From contig JACRBI010000024.1 of assembly GCA_016234495.1 (NCBI GenBank), positions 181,283 to 245,282 of the forward strand: DNA of 64,000 nucleotides, in the 5' to 3' direction. Under the pieces are notes generated by a model. It ran no database searches. It saw only the letters and a program-made list of their open reading frames with translations, and was not told where the DNA came from. Positions 12,855 through 17,707 of this stretch are shown here, one piece after another. Position 1 is the stretch's first letter; each line of letters begins with the position of its first letter. The stretch comes from Chloroflexota bacterium. Its GTDB lineage: Bacteria; Chloroflexota; Anaerolineae; Anaerolineales; Villigracilaceae. Both the position numbers and the translations under genes were made by a program.

Positions 12855-13775
12855 ATGTTGAACATGAAATCACCTTCCTTGCAGATCGGGAGTTTTACAT
12901 TCAACTGGGGTTCCCGCACCTACGTGATGGGAATCTTGAATGTGACTCCCGATAGTTTTTCCGGTGACGGGATCATCGCAAAAGGGGATGCCGTGGAGGT
13001 GGCTGTCAATCAGGCCAATAACTTCCTCGCATCCGGCGCGGATATTTTGGATGTGGGCGGCGAGTCAACGCGGCCTGGTTCGTCCCCGGTCAACGCGGAT
13101 GAAGAGATGGAGCGCGTGATTCCAATTATTCACGCATTAAATAAAAATTTTCCCGAAGCATTAATTTCAATTGACACATATAAAGCGATGGTTGCCGAAG
13201 AGGCGATCAAAGCCGGCGCGCATATCGTCAACGATGTGTGGGGATTGCGTGCCGATGATGGGCTTGCGTCTGTTGCGGCGAAATATAGAACGCCGGTCAT
13301 TCTCATGCACAACCGCAGCAACCCCGCCAGCGTCGAAGTCCGCGAGAAATTTGGGAATGCCTACATCGGCGCTGAGTATGAAAACTTAATTGAAGATGTA
13401 AAACGCGAATTAATGAACAGCGTGGAACTGGCGCGCAAAGCCGGAATTGCTGAGTCGCACATTGTTCTGGATCCAGGCGTCGGGTTTGGAAAGACGCGCG
13501 AGCATAACCTGGAGCTGGTCAATCGGCTGGATGAAATCCGCAGGCTGGGATATCCCATTTTACTGGGCACATCCCGCAAATCATTTATTGGATTCACTTT
13601 GGACCTGCCGCCTGACCAACGCGTGGAAGGGACTGCGGCAACTGTGGCAGTCGGCATCGCGCGCGGCGCAGACATCATCCGCGTGCATGATGTGAAAGAG
13701 ATGGCGCGTGTGGCGAAGATGACAGATGCGATTGTGAGAAAATCATTCACCACAGATAAAAAGGATAAACACTGA
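12855..13775 (+). CDS. folP: dihydropteroate synthase
   Basis: Condenses dihydropterin pyrophosphate with p-aminobenzoate in folate synthesis; the sulfonamide target. All family motifs are present: 'MGILNVTPDSFSGDG', 'GGESTRPGS', 'ISIDTYKAMVAEEAI', 'NDVWGL', 'ILMHNR', 'LDPGVGFGKTREHNLEL', 'LGTSRKSFIG' and terminal 'RVHDVKEM'. The 306 residues are slightly long. The first ATG (12855) abuts a palindromic repeat and no Shine-Dalgarno is visible; ATG 12864 is an alternative. It is followed 53 nt later by the zinc-ribbon gene. No other folate genes are adjacent. Confidence 0.97.
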   Translation: MLNMKSPSLQIGSFTFNWGSRTYVMGILNVTPDSFSGDGIIAKGDAVEVAVNQANNFLASGADILDVGGESTRPGSSPVNADEEMERVIPIIHALNKNFPEALISIDTYKAMVAEEAIKAGAHIVNDVWGLRADDGLASVAAKYRTPVILMHNRSNPASVEVREKFGNAYIGAEYENLIEDVKRELMNSVELARKAGIAESHIVLDPGVGFGKTREHNLELVNRLDEIRRLGYPILLGTSRKSFIGFTLDLPPDQRVEGTAATVAVGIARGADIIRVHDVKEMARVAKMTDAIVRKSFTTDKKDKH

Positions 13776-13820
13776 TTTTTAGATAAAAAACAAATCCTTT
13801 TCATCTGTGTTCATCTGTGG
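13748..13820. repeat. inverted repeat of the cacagat/atctgtg type
   Basis: ACCACAGATAAAAAGGAT faces ATCCTTTTCATCTGTG across the folP stop; a further ATCTGTGG follows. The composition resembles other dispersed repeats of this window. Confidence 0.6.
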
Positions 13821-13828
13821 ATAAGAAA

Positions 13829-15154
13829 ATGGAAGATTACTCAAAAGAACTTCTCCGCTCTGGAATTATCGAAGCAAAAACGGGCAGTCATGAATCAGCT
13901 CGACGCTATCTTGACCGCGCCATTTACATGACAGGCTCGCATAATGTGCTGGCTGAGGCGTGGTATTGGATGAGCGAGATCACTGCCGATTCTGTTGAAA
14001 AACGCAAGGCGCTTGAAAATTGTCTTTCGCATGATCTGCGTCATGCGCGGGCGCGGCGTTCGCTTGCAATCCTCGACGGAAAACTCAAAGCCGATGAGGT
14101 GATCAACCCCGACGAACTGCCCGCCGCGCCCGAAGGATTGCGACAGGCAAACGCGGATAGATTTATGTGCCCCAAATGCGGCGGACGCATGGCTTTTGCG
14201 CCTGATGGTCAGACACTTGTCTGTGATTATTGTTCACGCGGACAAGCCGTTAATGCCGGTACAAAAGAAGCGAACGAAAAGGATTTCATCGTTGCCATGG
14301 CAACCGCACGCGGACACGGCAAACCCTTGCAGGAGCAGGTTTTTCATTGCAATGGCTGCGGCGCGGAATTTATCTTGCCGCCAAAACAGATTTCGGCTTC
14401 GTGCGTCTATTGCGATTCCCCGCATGTGGTCAGCCTTGAAAAAACAAAAGACCTGCTTGCGCCGAACGGAATCATTCCGCACACATTCAACCAGAAACAG
14501 GCGATAAAATTATTAATTGACTGGGTCGAGAGCAACAACATCAAACCTGAGAAACAGGTGGAACTGCCGCGCGGGCTGTATCTTCCATTATGGACTTTTG
14601 ACATTGGCGGCGTCATTGATTACACCGGCGAAACAATCGAATACGAAGATCAAATGTTTGCAAAGCGCGGACAGAAAAAAGTTGTGCGCGTGACAGACCA
14701 GTATCCGATCATGGTGGATGACCTGCCGCTTCCCGCCTCCCGAAAACTGTCTGCTGTTTTCGTAAAGTTGATCGGCGCCTTTGACATGAAAACCATCAAG
14801 CCGTACGACCCGCGCTTCCTCGCAAACTGGCCCGCGGAAATCTACGACGTGCCCATGGCAGATGCTTCGCTGGATGCGCGCAGTCAGGCGTATGCGCGTT
14901 ACAAGGATAAACTTCCGCACTTGCTGAATGGACTCAACATTGTCCACACCTCGTCGCAAAACCTGGCAGTGGAGTCCTTCAAATTAAATTTGCTCCCCGT
15001 GTGGATGACGGAACTGCCCTTTGACGGTCGCGAACATCTGGTGTTGATCAACGGTCAGAGTGGGGTTGTCGCCAGCGATATTCCAGACAAGGCACAGCAG
15101 GAAGAATCCGAAGGCGGGTTGATGGGTTTTCTGGCGGATTTGATCAATGACTGA
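13829..15154 (+). CDS. double zinc-ribbon protein with TPR-like N-terminus, hypothetical
   Basis: A 441-residue soluble protein I do not recognise by name. Residues about 1-95 form helical TPR-like repeats ('SGIIEAKTGSHESARRYLDRAIY', 'AEAWYWMSEI'). Then come two four-cysteine knuckles: CPKCGG...CDYC (about 115-140) and CNGCG...CVYC (about 175-200). The following domain contains 'LYLPLWTFDIGG' and 'KLNLLPVWMTELPF', which resembles membrane-associated zinc-ribbon proteins that handle 'LPLW'-type segments, but no transmembrane helix is evident. ATG 13829 is chosen; an in-frame GTG at 13817 is the track start. It may be cotranscribed with folP. Confidence 0.75.
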   Translation: MEDYSKELLRSGIIEAKTGSHESARRYLDRAIYMTGSHNVLAEAWYWMSEITADSVEKRKALENCLSHDLRHARARRSLAILDGKLKADEVINPDELPAAPEGLRQANADRFMCPKCGGRMAFAPDGQTLVCDYCSRGQAVNAGTKEANEKDFIVAMATARGHGKPLQEQVFHCNGCGAEFILPPKQISASCVYCDSPHVVSLEKTKDLLAPNGIIPHTFNQKQAIKLLIDWVESNNIKPEKQVELPRGLYLPLWTFDIGGVIDYTGETIEYEDQMFAKRGQKKVVRVTDQYPIMVDDLPLPASRKLSAVFVKLIGAFDMKTIKPYDPRFLANWPAEIYDVPMADASLDARSQAYARYKDKLPHLLNGLNIVHTSSQNLAVESFKLNLLPVWMTELPFDGREHLVLINGQSGVVASDIPDKAQQEESEGGLMGFLADLIND

Positions 15155-15184: not shown

Positions 15185-15200
15185 TGATACAATAGAGACA
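15185..15200 (+). promoter_or_regulatory. extended -10 promoter, leaderless PBP-like mRNA
   Basis: TGATACAAT (TG-n plus TACAAT at 15188-15193) lies 6 bases before ATG 15200, with no Shine-Dalgarno between. Confidence 0.65.
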
Positions 15201-17707
15201 TGCCTTCCACCCTTTCCACCCTTCGCGCGCGGCGCGAACGCCGACTCGCAAAACAGCGCACAGCATCCAACCGCACACGCGGAGCATTGCTTACAGTGGG
15301 GATGCTTCTTTCGATTCTGCTCGCCGCGCTGATCATCCTCGGCGCATTTGCCTACGCTGACATCACGCGCGATCTTCCTTCGGTTGAAATCCTTCCGCGC
15401 CTGCTCAACCCGCCCGCTGGAATTTTGTCGCAGCCCACACGTATCTTTGACCGCAGCGGACAGCAATTGCTTTTCACCTTCGCGCCGGCAGAAACATCGC
15501 GCCGGTACATTCCCATCAACGAACAAAACCCACAGCACATCCCCGAAAATTTAGTCAATGCCGTGATCGCCGTGACCGACCCGAAATTTTGGTCGCATTC
15601 CGGTTACGCCATTCAGGATTACAACAACCCCGAATCGCATCAGACCATCGCGCAAAAACTGGCCAGCGAGTTGATCACATTCAACGAAGCGCCATCGCTG
15701 CGGCGTTCCATCCGCGAGCGGATTCTTGCTGCGCAGATCACCGCGCAATTTGGGCGCACGCAGGTCATCGAGTGGCATCTCAACAGCGCGCACTTCGGCA
15801 ATTATGCTTTCGGCGTCGAAGCCGCGTCGCAGTTGTATTTCGGAAAAGCCGCCGAACAACTTACACTGGCTGAGTCTGCCATCCTTGCGGCTGCGAGCGA
15901 GACTCCTGCGCTCAATCCGCTGAATGCGCCGCAGCAGGCAATTCAACGCGGCCGCGAAGTGGTGCATATTTTGGACGAACTCGGCATGGTAAATAAAAAG
16001 GATGCGATTGCTGCGCTGGCAGAGACTCCTGAAATTCAAACAGCGGATCCGACTCCGCCCGGGCCCGCTCCTGCTTTCGTCAACATGGTCTTGTCTCAAC
16101 TAGACTCGCAAATCCCGCGTGACCGAATCGAGCGCGGCGGATTGAACATCATTACCACGCTCGATTATGAATTACAAAAACAATCCGCGTGTGTGACGGA
16201 AGCCTACGCCGCGCGCATGGCCGGGTTGACCGAATCGAAAAAAGATTGCGCGTCTGCGGGCTTGCTGCCGTCGCTGCCGCCCGCCGTCACACTCGCTGAC
16301 TCGTCTGCGAGCGCGTTGATCCTCGACCCGAATAATGGGCAGGTGCTGGCGCTGGTCGGCGAGACTGCTCAAGGCGTGGAAACTCCGCTCGTAAGCGCGC
16401 ACCAGCCCGGGTCCAGTTTGGATGCGTTTGTCTATTTAACAGGATTCACCCGCGGGTTGAGTCCAGCCTCGTTGACGTGGGATGTCCCCGATGGGGGAGT
16501 CATCCAAAACTTTGACGGTCTTTATCACGGGCCAATGCGCTTGCGGGTTGCGCTGGCGAATGATTACCAGATTCCAGTTGAGACGTTGAAGGCGCAGATG
16601 GGAATTGAAAATGTGACGAACATTGCTTCGTCGTTTGGGATTGATTTAAACAAAGACGTTTCGATGCTGAAGCTCGCTGGCGCGTACGGCGTGTTCGGAA
16701 AACAGGGAATTTATTTTGGGCAAAATGTGGGCGATGAATTTTTGCCTGTGACTGTTTTGCGCGTGGAAAGTGCCGATCATACCGTGTGGGTGGATTGGAC
16801 ACTTCCGCAAGCCAAGCCCGTGCTGACGCCTGCGCTGGCTTATTTGATGACGCATGTTTTGAGCGATGAAACCGCGCGCGGCGAATCGAATCCGCTGGAA
16901 GTTGGGCGGCCTGCGGGCGTGAAGGTCGGGCAGACTGCTGATGGACTCGATGCGTGGGCGGTTGGGTTTACGCCCGCGCATGTGGTTGTCACATGGACTG
17001 GATTGCATGGCCGCGATGCGAGTGAAATGGTTACTCCGCGATTTCCCTCCGTGTTGTGGAGTGGGCTGATGCAACTGGCTTCGGGCAATTCTCCCGCTGA
17101 CGGTTGGATTGCGCCGCAGGGCGTTTCGACCATTACGGTTTGTGACCCATCGGGGATGCTGCCCACAAGCGAATGTCCAAATTTGGTGAGCGAGATTTTC
17201 ATGAACGGCAGCGAACCCATCCAGGCGGATAATTTATTCCGCGAGTTTGACATCAACCGCGAAACGGGTCTGCTGGCAACCGTGTTCACGCCGCCTGAGT
17301 TGATTGAAACACGCGTGTATATGCTTGTCCCAGAGTCAGCGCGGAGTTGGGCATTGGGCGCAGGCTTGGAGATTCCGCCGGCATCCTATGACGCGATTCA
17401 GGCGCCGCCTGTGAATCCAAATGCAAATATCACTTCGCCTGAATTATTTGCGGATGTGAGCGGCGCTGTGAAAATAATCGGCACTGCTTCCGGCGATGAT
17501 TTTGCCTATTATCGTGTGCAGGTTGGCAAGGGCTTGAATCCGCAGGAATGGATTCAACTGGGAAGTGATGTTCCTTCAATGGTGGAAAATGGAGTCCTCG
17601 CTGAGTGGGGTACAAAAGGTCTGAGAGGACTTTACGCGATTCAACTACAGGTTGTGAGGAAGGATCAAGTGGTGGAAACCGCAGTAATTCAAGTAACCAT
17701 CAAGTAA
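15200..17707 (+). CDS. class A penicillin-binding protein homologue with degenerate GT51 and transpeptidase sites
   Basis: An 835-residue PBP1A-type protein: short cytoplasmic tail, one TM anchor (about 28-52), GT51 glycosyltransferase-like domain (about 75-260), transpeptidase-like domain (about 330-640) and a C-terminal beta domain. The scaffold is recognisable ('LNSAHFGNYAFGVEAASQLYFGK', 'HQPGSSLDAFVYL', 'DAWAVGFTP'). Catalytic motifs are altered: GT51 EDxxFxxHxG reads TDPKFWSHSG, so the general-base Glu is missing; SxxK reads SSLD; SxN reads DYQ; KTGT reads KVGQ. A structural or scaffolding pseudoenzyme is more likely than peptidoglycan synthesis. The reading frame is intact over its full length, so it is not simple decay. 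Leaderless start, see 15185. Confidence 0.9.
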   Translation: MPSTLSTLRARRERRLAKQRTASNRTRGALLTVGMLLSILLAALIILGAFAYADITRDLPSVEILPRLLNPPAGILSQPTRIFDRSGQQLLFTFAPAETSRRYIPINEQNPQHIPENLVNAVIAVTDPKFWSHSGYAIQDYNNPESHQTIAQKLASELITFNEAPSLRRSIRERILAAQITAQFGRTQVIEWHLNSAHFGNYAFGVEAASQLYFGKAAEQLTLAESAILAAASETPALNPLNAPQQAIQRGREVVHILDELGMVNKKDAIAALAETPEIQTADPTPPGPAPAFVNMVLSQLDSQIPRDRIERGGLNIITTLDYELQKQSACVTEAYAARMAGLTESKKDCASAGLLPSLPPAVTLADSSASALILDPNNGQVLALVGETAQGVETPLVSAHQPGSSLDAFVYLTGFTRGLSPASLTWDVPDGGVIQNFDGLYHGPMRLRVALANDYQIPVETLKAQMGIENVTNIASSFGIDLNKDVSMLKLAGAYGVFGKQGIYFGQNVGDEFLPVTVLRVESADHTVWVDWTLPQAKPVLTPALAYLMTHVLSDETARGESNPLEVGRPAGVKVGQTADGLDAWAVGFTPAHVVVTWTGLHGRDASEMVTPRFPSVLWSGLMQLASGNSPADGWIAPQGVSTITVCDPSGMLPTSECPNLVSEIFMNGSEPIQADNLFREFDINRETGLLATVFTPPELIETRVYMLVPESARSWALGAGLEIPPASYDAIQAPPVNPNANITSPELFADVSGAVKIIGTASGDDFAYYRVQVGKGLNPQEWIQLGSDVPSMVENGVLAEWGTKGLRGLYAIQLQVVRKDQVVETAVIQVTIK

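Follow-up and report, generated by a model that had tools for sequence, protein, structure and literature searches.

Both active sites are degenerate in a class A PBP that is conserved in Anaerolineales and probably kept for a non-enzymatic role

The window analysed here (64,000 nucleotides of a Chloroflexota genome) carries an open reading frame with an ATG start at positions 15200-17707, which was identified with Pfam and NCBIfam as a class A PBP pseudoenzyme of 835 residues. The earlier note had described a full-length protein of this size without frame damage, and this was confirmed. The frame and the other window features given below lie on the forward (+) strand. A gene for dihydropteroate synthase (folP, 12855-13775; Pfam and NCBIfam) is found upstream, followed by an ORF (13817-15154, 45 bp upstream of the PBP) encoding a zinc-ribbon protein of 445 residues. 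The N-terminus of the latter is repeat-like, CxxC zinc ribbons occur in it several times, and searches of Pfam and NCBIfam returned no match to it. Against the Sul4 model, which has a cut-off of 600, the folP product scored 395 bits; its score against the general DHPS model was 308 bits. Judging from its sequence, this chromosomal folP is a near relative of sul4, a mobile sulfonamide-resistance gene the origin of which has been assigned to Chloroflexi (PMC5732528).

The PBP has an N-terminal membrane anchor, a GT51 domain and a transpeptidase domain C-terminal to GT51, as class A PBPs do. The anchor is a hydrophobic stretch at residues about 27-53 (15278-15358), preceded by a basic cytoplasmic tail and contained in a model helix spanning residues 2-56. 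The GT51 domain (residues 110-260, 15527-15979) scored 93.1 bits against PF00912 (cut-off 27). The transpeptidase domain (residues 365-620, 16292-17059) scored 20.9 bits against PF00905, just below the cut-off of 22.1, and was established by a profile match over the full length of the protein to solved class A PBPs (E of 1e-74 to 7u4h). The nearest NCBIfam model, TIGR02074 (PBP_1a), gave 250.5 bits, about half of its curated cut-off of 508.75. The features of class A PBPs that were not found are the Glu of GT motif 1 (E233 in PBP1b) and the SxxK, SxN and KTG motifs. A linker insert between the two domains contains Cys331 (16190-16192) and Cys350 (16247-16249), the partners in a probable disulfide. 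The C-terminal region (residues 621-835, 17060-17704), recognised by identity comparison and in the model, comprises a CDPSGxLPTxxC element and an Ig/FnIII-like beta domain. The protein remains a type II membrane protein, its GT, transpeptidase and C-terminal modules being extracytoplasmic.

The catalytic motifs were located in a MAFFT L-INS-i alignment of the window PBP with E. coli PBP1a, PBP1b and PBP1c and 19 Chloroflexota paralogues. They were placed independently by two comparisons with PDB chains, one by phmmer and one by a HMMER profile built from 40 orthologues and homologues. All three placed the motifs where the earlier note had read them by eye. GT motif 1 reads TDPKFWSHSG for EDxxFxxHxG (15575-15604), with Thr126 in place of the catalytic Glu. 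In GT motif 2, ESHQTIAQKL stands for GGSTITQQL (15632-15661) and is preceded by a deletion of about 11 residues, and in GT motif 3, RRSIRE for RKxxE (15701-15718), the Lys is lost and the Glu kept. In the transpeptidase domain, SxxK is replaced by SSLD (residues 405-408, 16412-16423), with Lys changed to Asp and the Ser kept, SxN by DYQ (residues 455-457, 16562-16570) and KTGT by KVGQ (residues 575-578, 16922-16933). The claim that every catalytic motif was lost thus stands in so far as all are broken, but Asp127 of GT motif 1, Glu173 of GT motif 3, Ser405 of SxxK and Lys575 and Gly577 of KTG survive. The claim of a well-kept scaffold also stands in part: the frame is undamaged, but GT motifs 1 and 2 are separated by 22 residues against 32-33 in active enzymes, 11 short.

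A regular-expression search of the whole protein found no ED..F, K[ST]G or GT2 motif, and the sole S..K (488) and S.N (628) fall off the aligned motif positions. Neither this search nor the alignments therefore revealed a catalytic Glu, Ser-Lys or KTG elsewhere in the protein, a finding that would have overturned the earlier reading. On the residues present, catalysis by the known GT and SxxK chemistry is excluded, and we infer a total lack of enzymatic activity.

The same losses were found throughout a family of 102 sequences. The SxxK Lys was present in none of them and in 47/47 intact PBPs, a difference far beyond chance; its position is taken by Asp, Thr, Ser, Ala, Leu and other residues. 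The Glu of GT motif 1 was kept in two of the 102 and the Thr of KTG in eight. Other positions were strongly conserved: KTG Lys in 80/102 and Gly in 91/102, Ser or Thr of SxxK in 94/102, Asp in place of the SxN Ser in 83/102, and W192 in every member.

The AlphaFold model of the GT domain had pLDDT values mostly of 80-90 and matched the Aquifex GT51 structure 3d3h with a target-normalised TM-score of 0.86, so the degenerate domain has probably retained its fold. Models of the transpeptidase domain, within the whole protein and alone, had pLDDT of about 30-46. A pocket or salt-bridge reading of this domain was dropped because confidence was too low; an Asp455-Lys575 pair may be guessed at.

Anaerolineales members of the degenerate family came from ten families (f1, f2, f5-f9 and f12-f14, with f7 represented by one partial sequence), and further members were found in two class-level families (f20 and f24). 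Full-length orthologues with the same losses were present in nearly every same-genus genome. Near relatives came from Anaerolineales metagenome genomes, including one of Candidatus Villigracilaceae at 66% identity, so that the genome of the window is probably a member or close neighbour of this family. Across the order identity was mostly 38-62%. Every motif was intact in the orthologues of f3, f4, f10, f11 and f15 of the same order, and in those of the class-level families f16, f17, f19 and f21-f23. In trees built from alignments with the motif columns removed, degenerate and intact forms fell into one group, and the two further class A paralogues that these genomes encode fell outside it. 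The insert with Cys331 and Cys350 was found in 100 of the 102 degenerate sequences, 12 of 18 intact orthologues and none of 29 other PBPs. It thus unites degenerate and intact forms in one family by a shared derived trait that is independent of the active sites.

In the careful tree, 30 degenerate sequences from Anaerolineales formed one clade against the intact homologues (branch support 100/100), which indicates that catalysis was lost early there, in both domains. The window PBP belongs to a clade of pseudoenzymes that is specific to this lineage, within a well-known family. In a quick 100-row tree the 66 degenerate sequences had all formed a single clade, but the careful tree moved L193 (f24) beside an active sequence with weak support (60/55). 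For this reason we make no claim of a single loss outside Anaerolineales; L193 may be an independent loss. The f20 sequence (L194) has a long branch and was excluded from the careful tree. The best-kept f5 member (L169) retains the full spacing between GT motifs 1 and 2 and the Ser and Asn of SxN. By its sequence it looks transitional, as if the GT Glu and SxxK Lys had been lost first and the remaining motifs afterwards. At the other extreme, four members of the degenerate clade from f2 and f9 (L056-L059) were extremely divergent, with nearly no motif residue remaining.

A GT51 gene above the Pfam cut-off was detected in 120 of 121 genomes of the order, each at least 95% complete. No homologue of the degenerate PBP was detectable in the genera g38 and g56 of f13, where most genomes had only one GT51 gene. 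The protein is thus dispensable at least there, and these genomes are probable natural losses. Examples are G061, G082, G098 and G119, each with a single GT51 gene and no close match to the degenerate PBP.

Purifying selection was evident in the orthologues. By the Nei-Gojobori method, whole-gene dN/dS was 0.076-0.164 in 11 close orthologue pairs, so the relaxed selection that would have told against the earlier note was not seen. Values for the GT and transpeptidase domains were about 0.04-0.16 in nearly all pairs, with a maximum of 0.36 for any domain in any pair; adjacent housekeeping genes in the same pairs ranged from 0 to 0.25. Frames were intact in the full-length same-genus orthologues examined as loci. 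Mean identity in the GT domain was 0.405 among degenerate sequences against 0.622 among active orthologues, and in the transpeptidase domain 0.356 against 0.609. The two parts of the C-terminal region gave 0.489 and 0.414 against 0.473 and 0.430. Since identity is reduced in the catalytic domains but level with the active orthologues in residues 621-835, constraint has moved towards the C-terminal region.

A canonical class A PBP was sought in the same genome and found (C23, 1011 residues), with all motifs present (EDKEFYTNPG, GGASTITQQ, SSIK, SFN and KTGT). The genome also encodes three SEDS proteins and three class B PBPs (592, 760 and 730 residues), the latter with intact SxxK and KTG. With these synthases, ordinary peptidoglycan is very probably made and the degenerate PBP is an extra component. 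The genes adjacent to it varied by family, with folP and the zinc-ribbon gene in f1 and nadK- and recN-like genes in f8 and f14. The zinc-ribbon gene was a common upstream neighbour within f1 only. The search for a partner by gene neighbourhood found conservation only within families, and since neighbours differ between families, no operon points to a partner.

A second degenerate transpeptidase domain, of class B type, was observed fused to a SEDS polymerase (FtsW/RodA, PF01098, 245 bits) in the same genome (G000, contig C18, 104425-106620; L211 and L212). In this fusion SxxK is lost (GLYPIGTALLPL) and KTG is absent. Its relatives comprised L213-L241 and, at order level, L242 and L245-L253. 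The SxxK Lys was missing in 29 of the 29 other aligned fusion sequences, and fusions of f1, f2, f5-f9, f11, f13 and f14 also lacked it. SEDS ORFs of f3, f4, f10 and f12 had no fused transpeptidase domain. Strict co-occurrence of the fusion with the degenerate class A PBP was rejected, as in f11 the fusion stood beside a class A PBP with intact motifs, and in f12 the degenerate PBP beside a stand-alone SEDS protein. No description of such a fusion was found in the open-access literature searched.

Since both active sites are lost and yet the gene is tightly conserved, the protein is very likely a non-enzymatic part of the wall-building machinery. The selection for a non-enzymatic role proposed in the earlier note is supported by the absence of alternative catalytic residues and by the purifying selection. 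We consider that the protein most likely serves the active synthases as a scaffold or allosteric partner, at a probability of just under 60%. This fits best because the protein retains its anchor, its C-terminal module and a predicted GT fold, live synthases are present, and non-catalytic roles of PBPs and pairs of dead and live wall enzymes are documented. The ancestor was an active bifunctional peptidoglycan synthase, still motif-intact in other Anaerolineae. The GT Glu and the transpeptidase Lys disappeared in the ancestor of most Anaerolineales families, with further motif erosion and the GT deletion coming later. The degenerate protein would now hold or switch on the intact class A PBP, the SEDS-class B PBP pairs or both, binding mainly through its C-terminal region. 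On a bolder and rather unlikely reading, the ancestral synthase has become an obligate non-catalytic subunit. Together with the SEDS fusion it would form a complex whose transpeptidase folds are purely allosteric parts, polymerisation and crosslinking being carried out by separate enzymes.

The conserved remnants of the transpeptidase motifs (KTG Lys and Gly, SxxK Ser or Thr and SxN Asp, at the frequencies given above) could also mark a pocket preserved in a new form. The protein would then be a substrate or antibiotic sensor whose dead domains, without catalysis, signal the state of the wall through binding of lipid II, stem peptide or glycan. Most substrate-contact residues are gone, however (SxN Asn, KTG Thr, the Gln and Ser of GT motif 2 and the Lys of GT motif 3), and the protein has no cytoplasmic signalling domain but just a short basic tail ahead of the anchor, so a sensor seems unlikely. 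Somewhat less likely again is a negative regulator, a dominant-negative paralogue that would damp synthesis by filling, within complexes, the place of an active class A PBP. Derivation from a real synthase and coexistence with active ones suit this role, but nothing in the sequence tells inhibition from activation, and near-constitutive retention over ten families slightly favours a stable structural part. That the protein is still an enzyme, its active site rewired onto the new conserved set of Ser/Thr405, Asp455, Lys575 and Gly577 at the old transpeptidase motif positions, is very improbable. No general base is conserved at the SxxK Lys position, and in the GT domain the catalytic Glu is gone and the segment that joins motifs 1 and 2 is partly missing. 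Least probable is a relaxed relic heading for pseudogenisation. The catalytic domains do evolve faster than in active orthologues, the f2 and f9 copies are very divergent and the gene is missing from parts of f13. Decay is nevertheless argued against by selection and retention, and largely refuted by a dN/dS of about 0.1 in every close pair; the intact frames and the fixation of W192 and, in 100/102, of both linker cysteines point the same way.

Evidence for non-enzymatic roles of PBPs usually comes from point mutations in active enzymes. The degenerate PBP is a natural separation-of-function allele affecting both domains at once and retained across ten families, and the active-looking orthologues of sister families are natural controls. 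With these, what a class A PBP does besides catalysis becomes directly testable, and the probable losses in f13 could be compared for wall phenotype. There is also a warning for annotation: calling any GT51/transpeptidase gene a beta-lactam target or peptidoglycan synthase can mislead across the greater part of an order. The open-access literature searched gave no account of PBP pseudoenzymes, nor of a class A PBP whose two active sites are naturally dead, subscription papers lying outside this search.

Like E. coli PBP1a and PBP1b and the TIGR02074 family, the degenerate PBP has a transmembrane anchor followed by the GT51 and then the transpeptidase domain, but in it every catalytic motif is degenerate. 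Its closest counterparts are the active Anaerolineae orthologues (for example L044-L046, L048-L051, L189-L192 and L123 from Chloroflexi bacterium TC_195), which share its architecture, EWYLN signature, C-terminal region and, in 12 of 18, the linker cysteines. Unlike it, they possess all GT and transpeptidase catalytic residues and normal spacing between GT motifs 1 and 2. Division requires B. subtilis PBP2B and S. aureus PBP1 even with the transpeptidase blocked or mutated, their non-enzymatic role being allosteric support of the SEDS polymerase (PMC8078798). Those proteins retain intact active sites, whereas the loss described here is natural, affects both domains and is order-wide. Degenerate LytM factors (EnvC, NlpD, ActS and Csd2) are likewise inactive homologues of wall enzymes that persist as regulators or partners (PMC8416486, PMC8360153, PMC5053510), and Csd2 forms a 1:1 heterodimer with the active Csd1 (PMC5053510). 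The degenerate PBP resembles them in having lost its catalytic residues while being kept by selection. The likeness is by analogy, as the LytM factors derive from hydrolases (M23) and the degenerate PBP from a bifunctional synthase.
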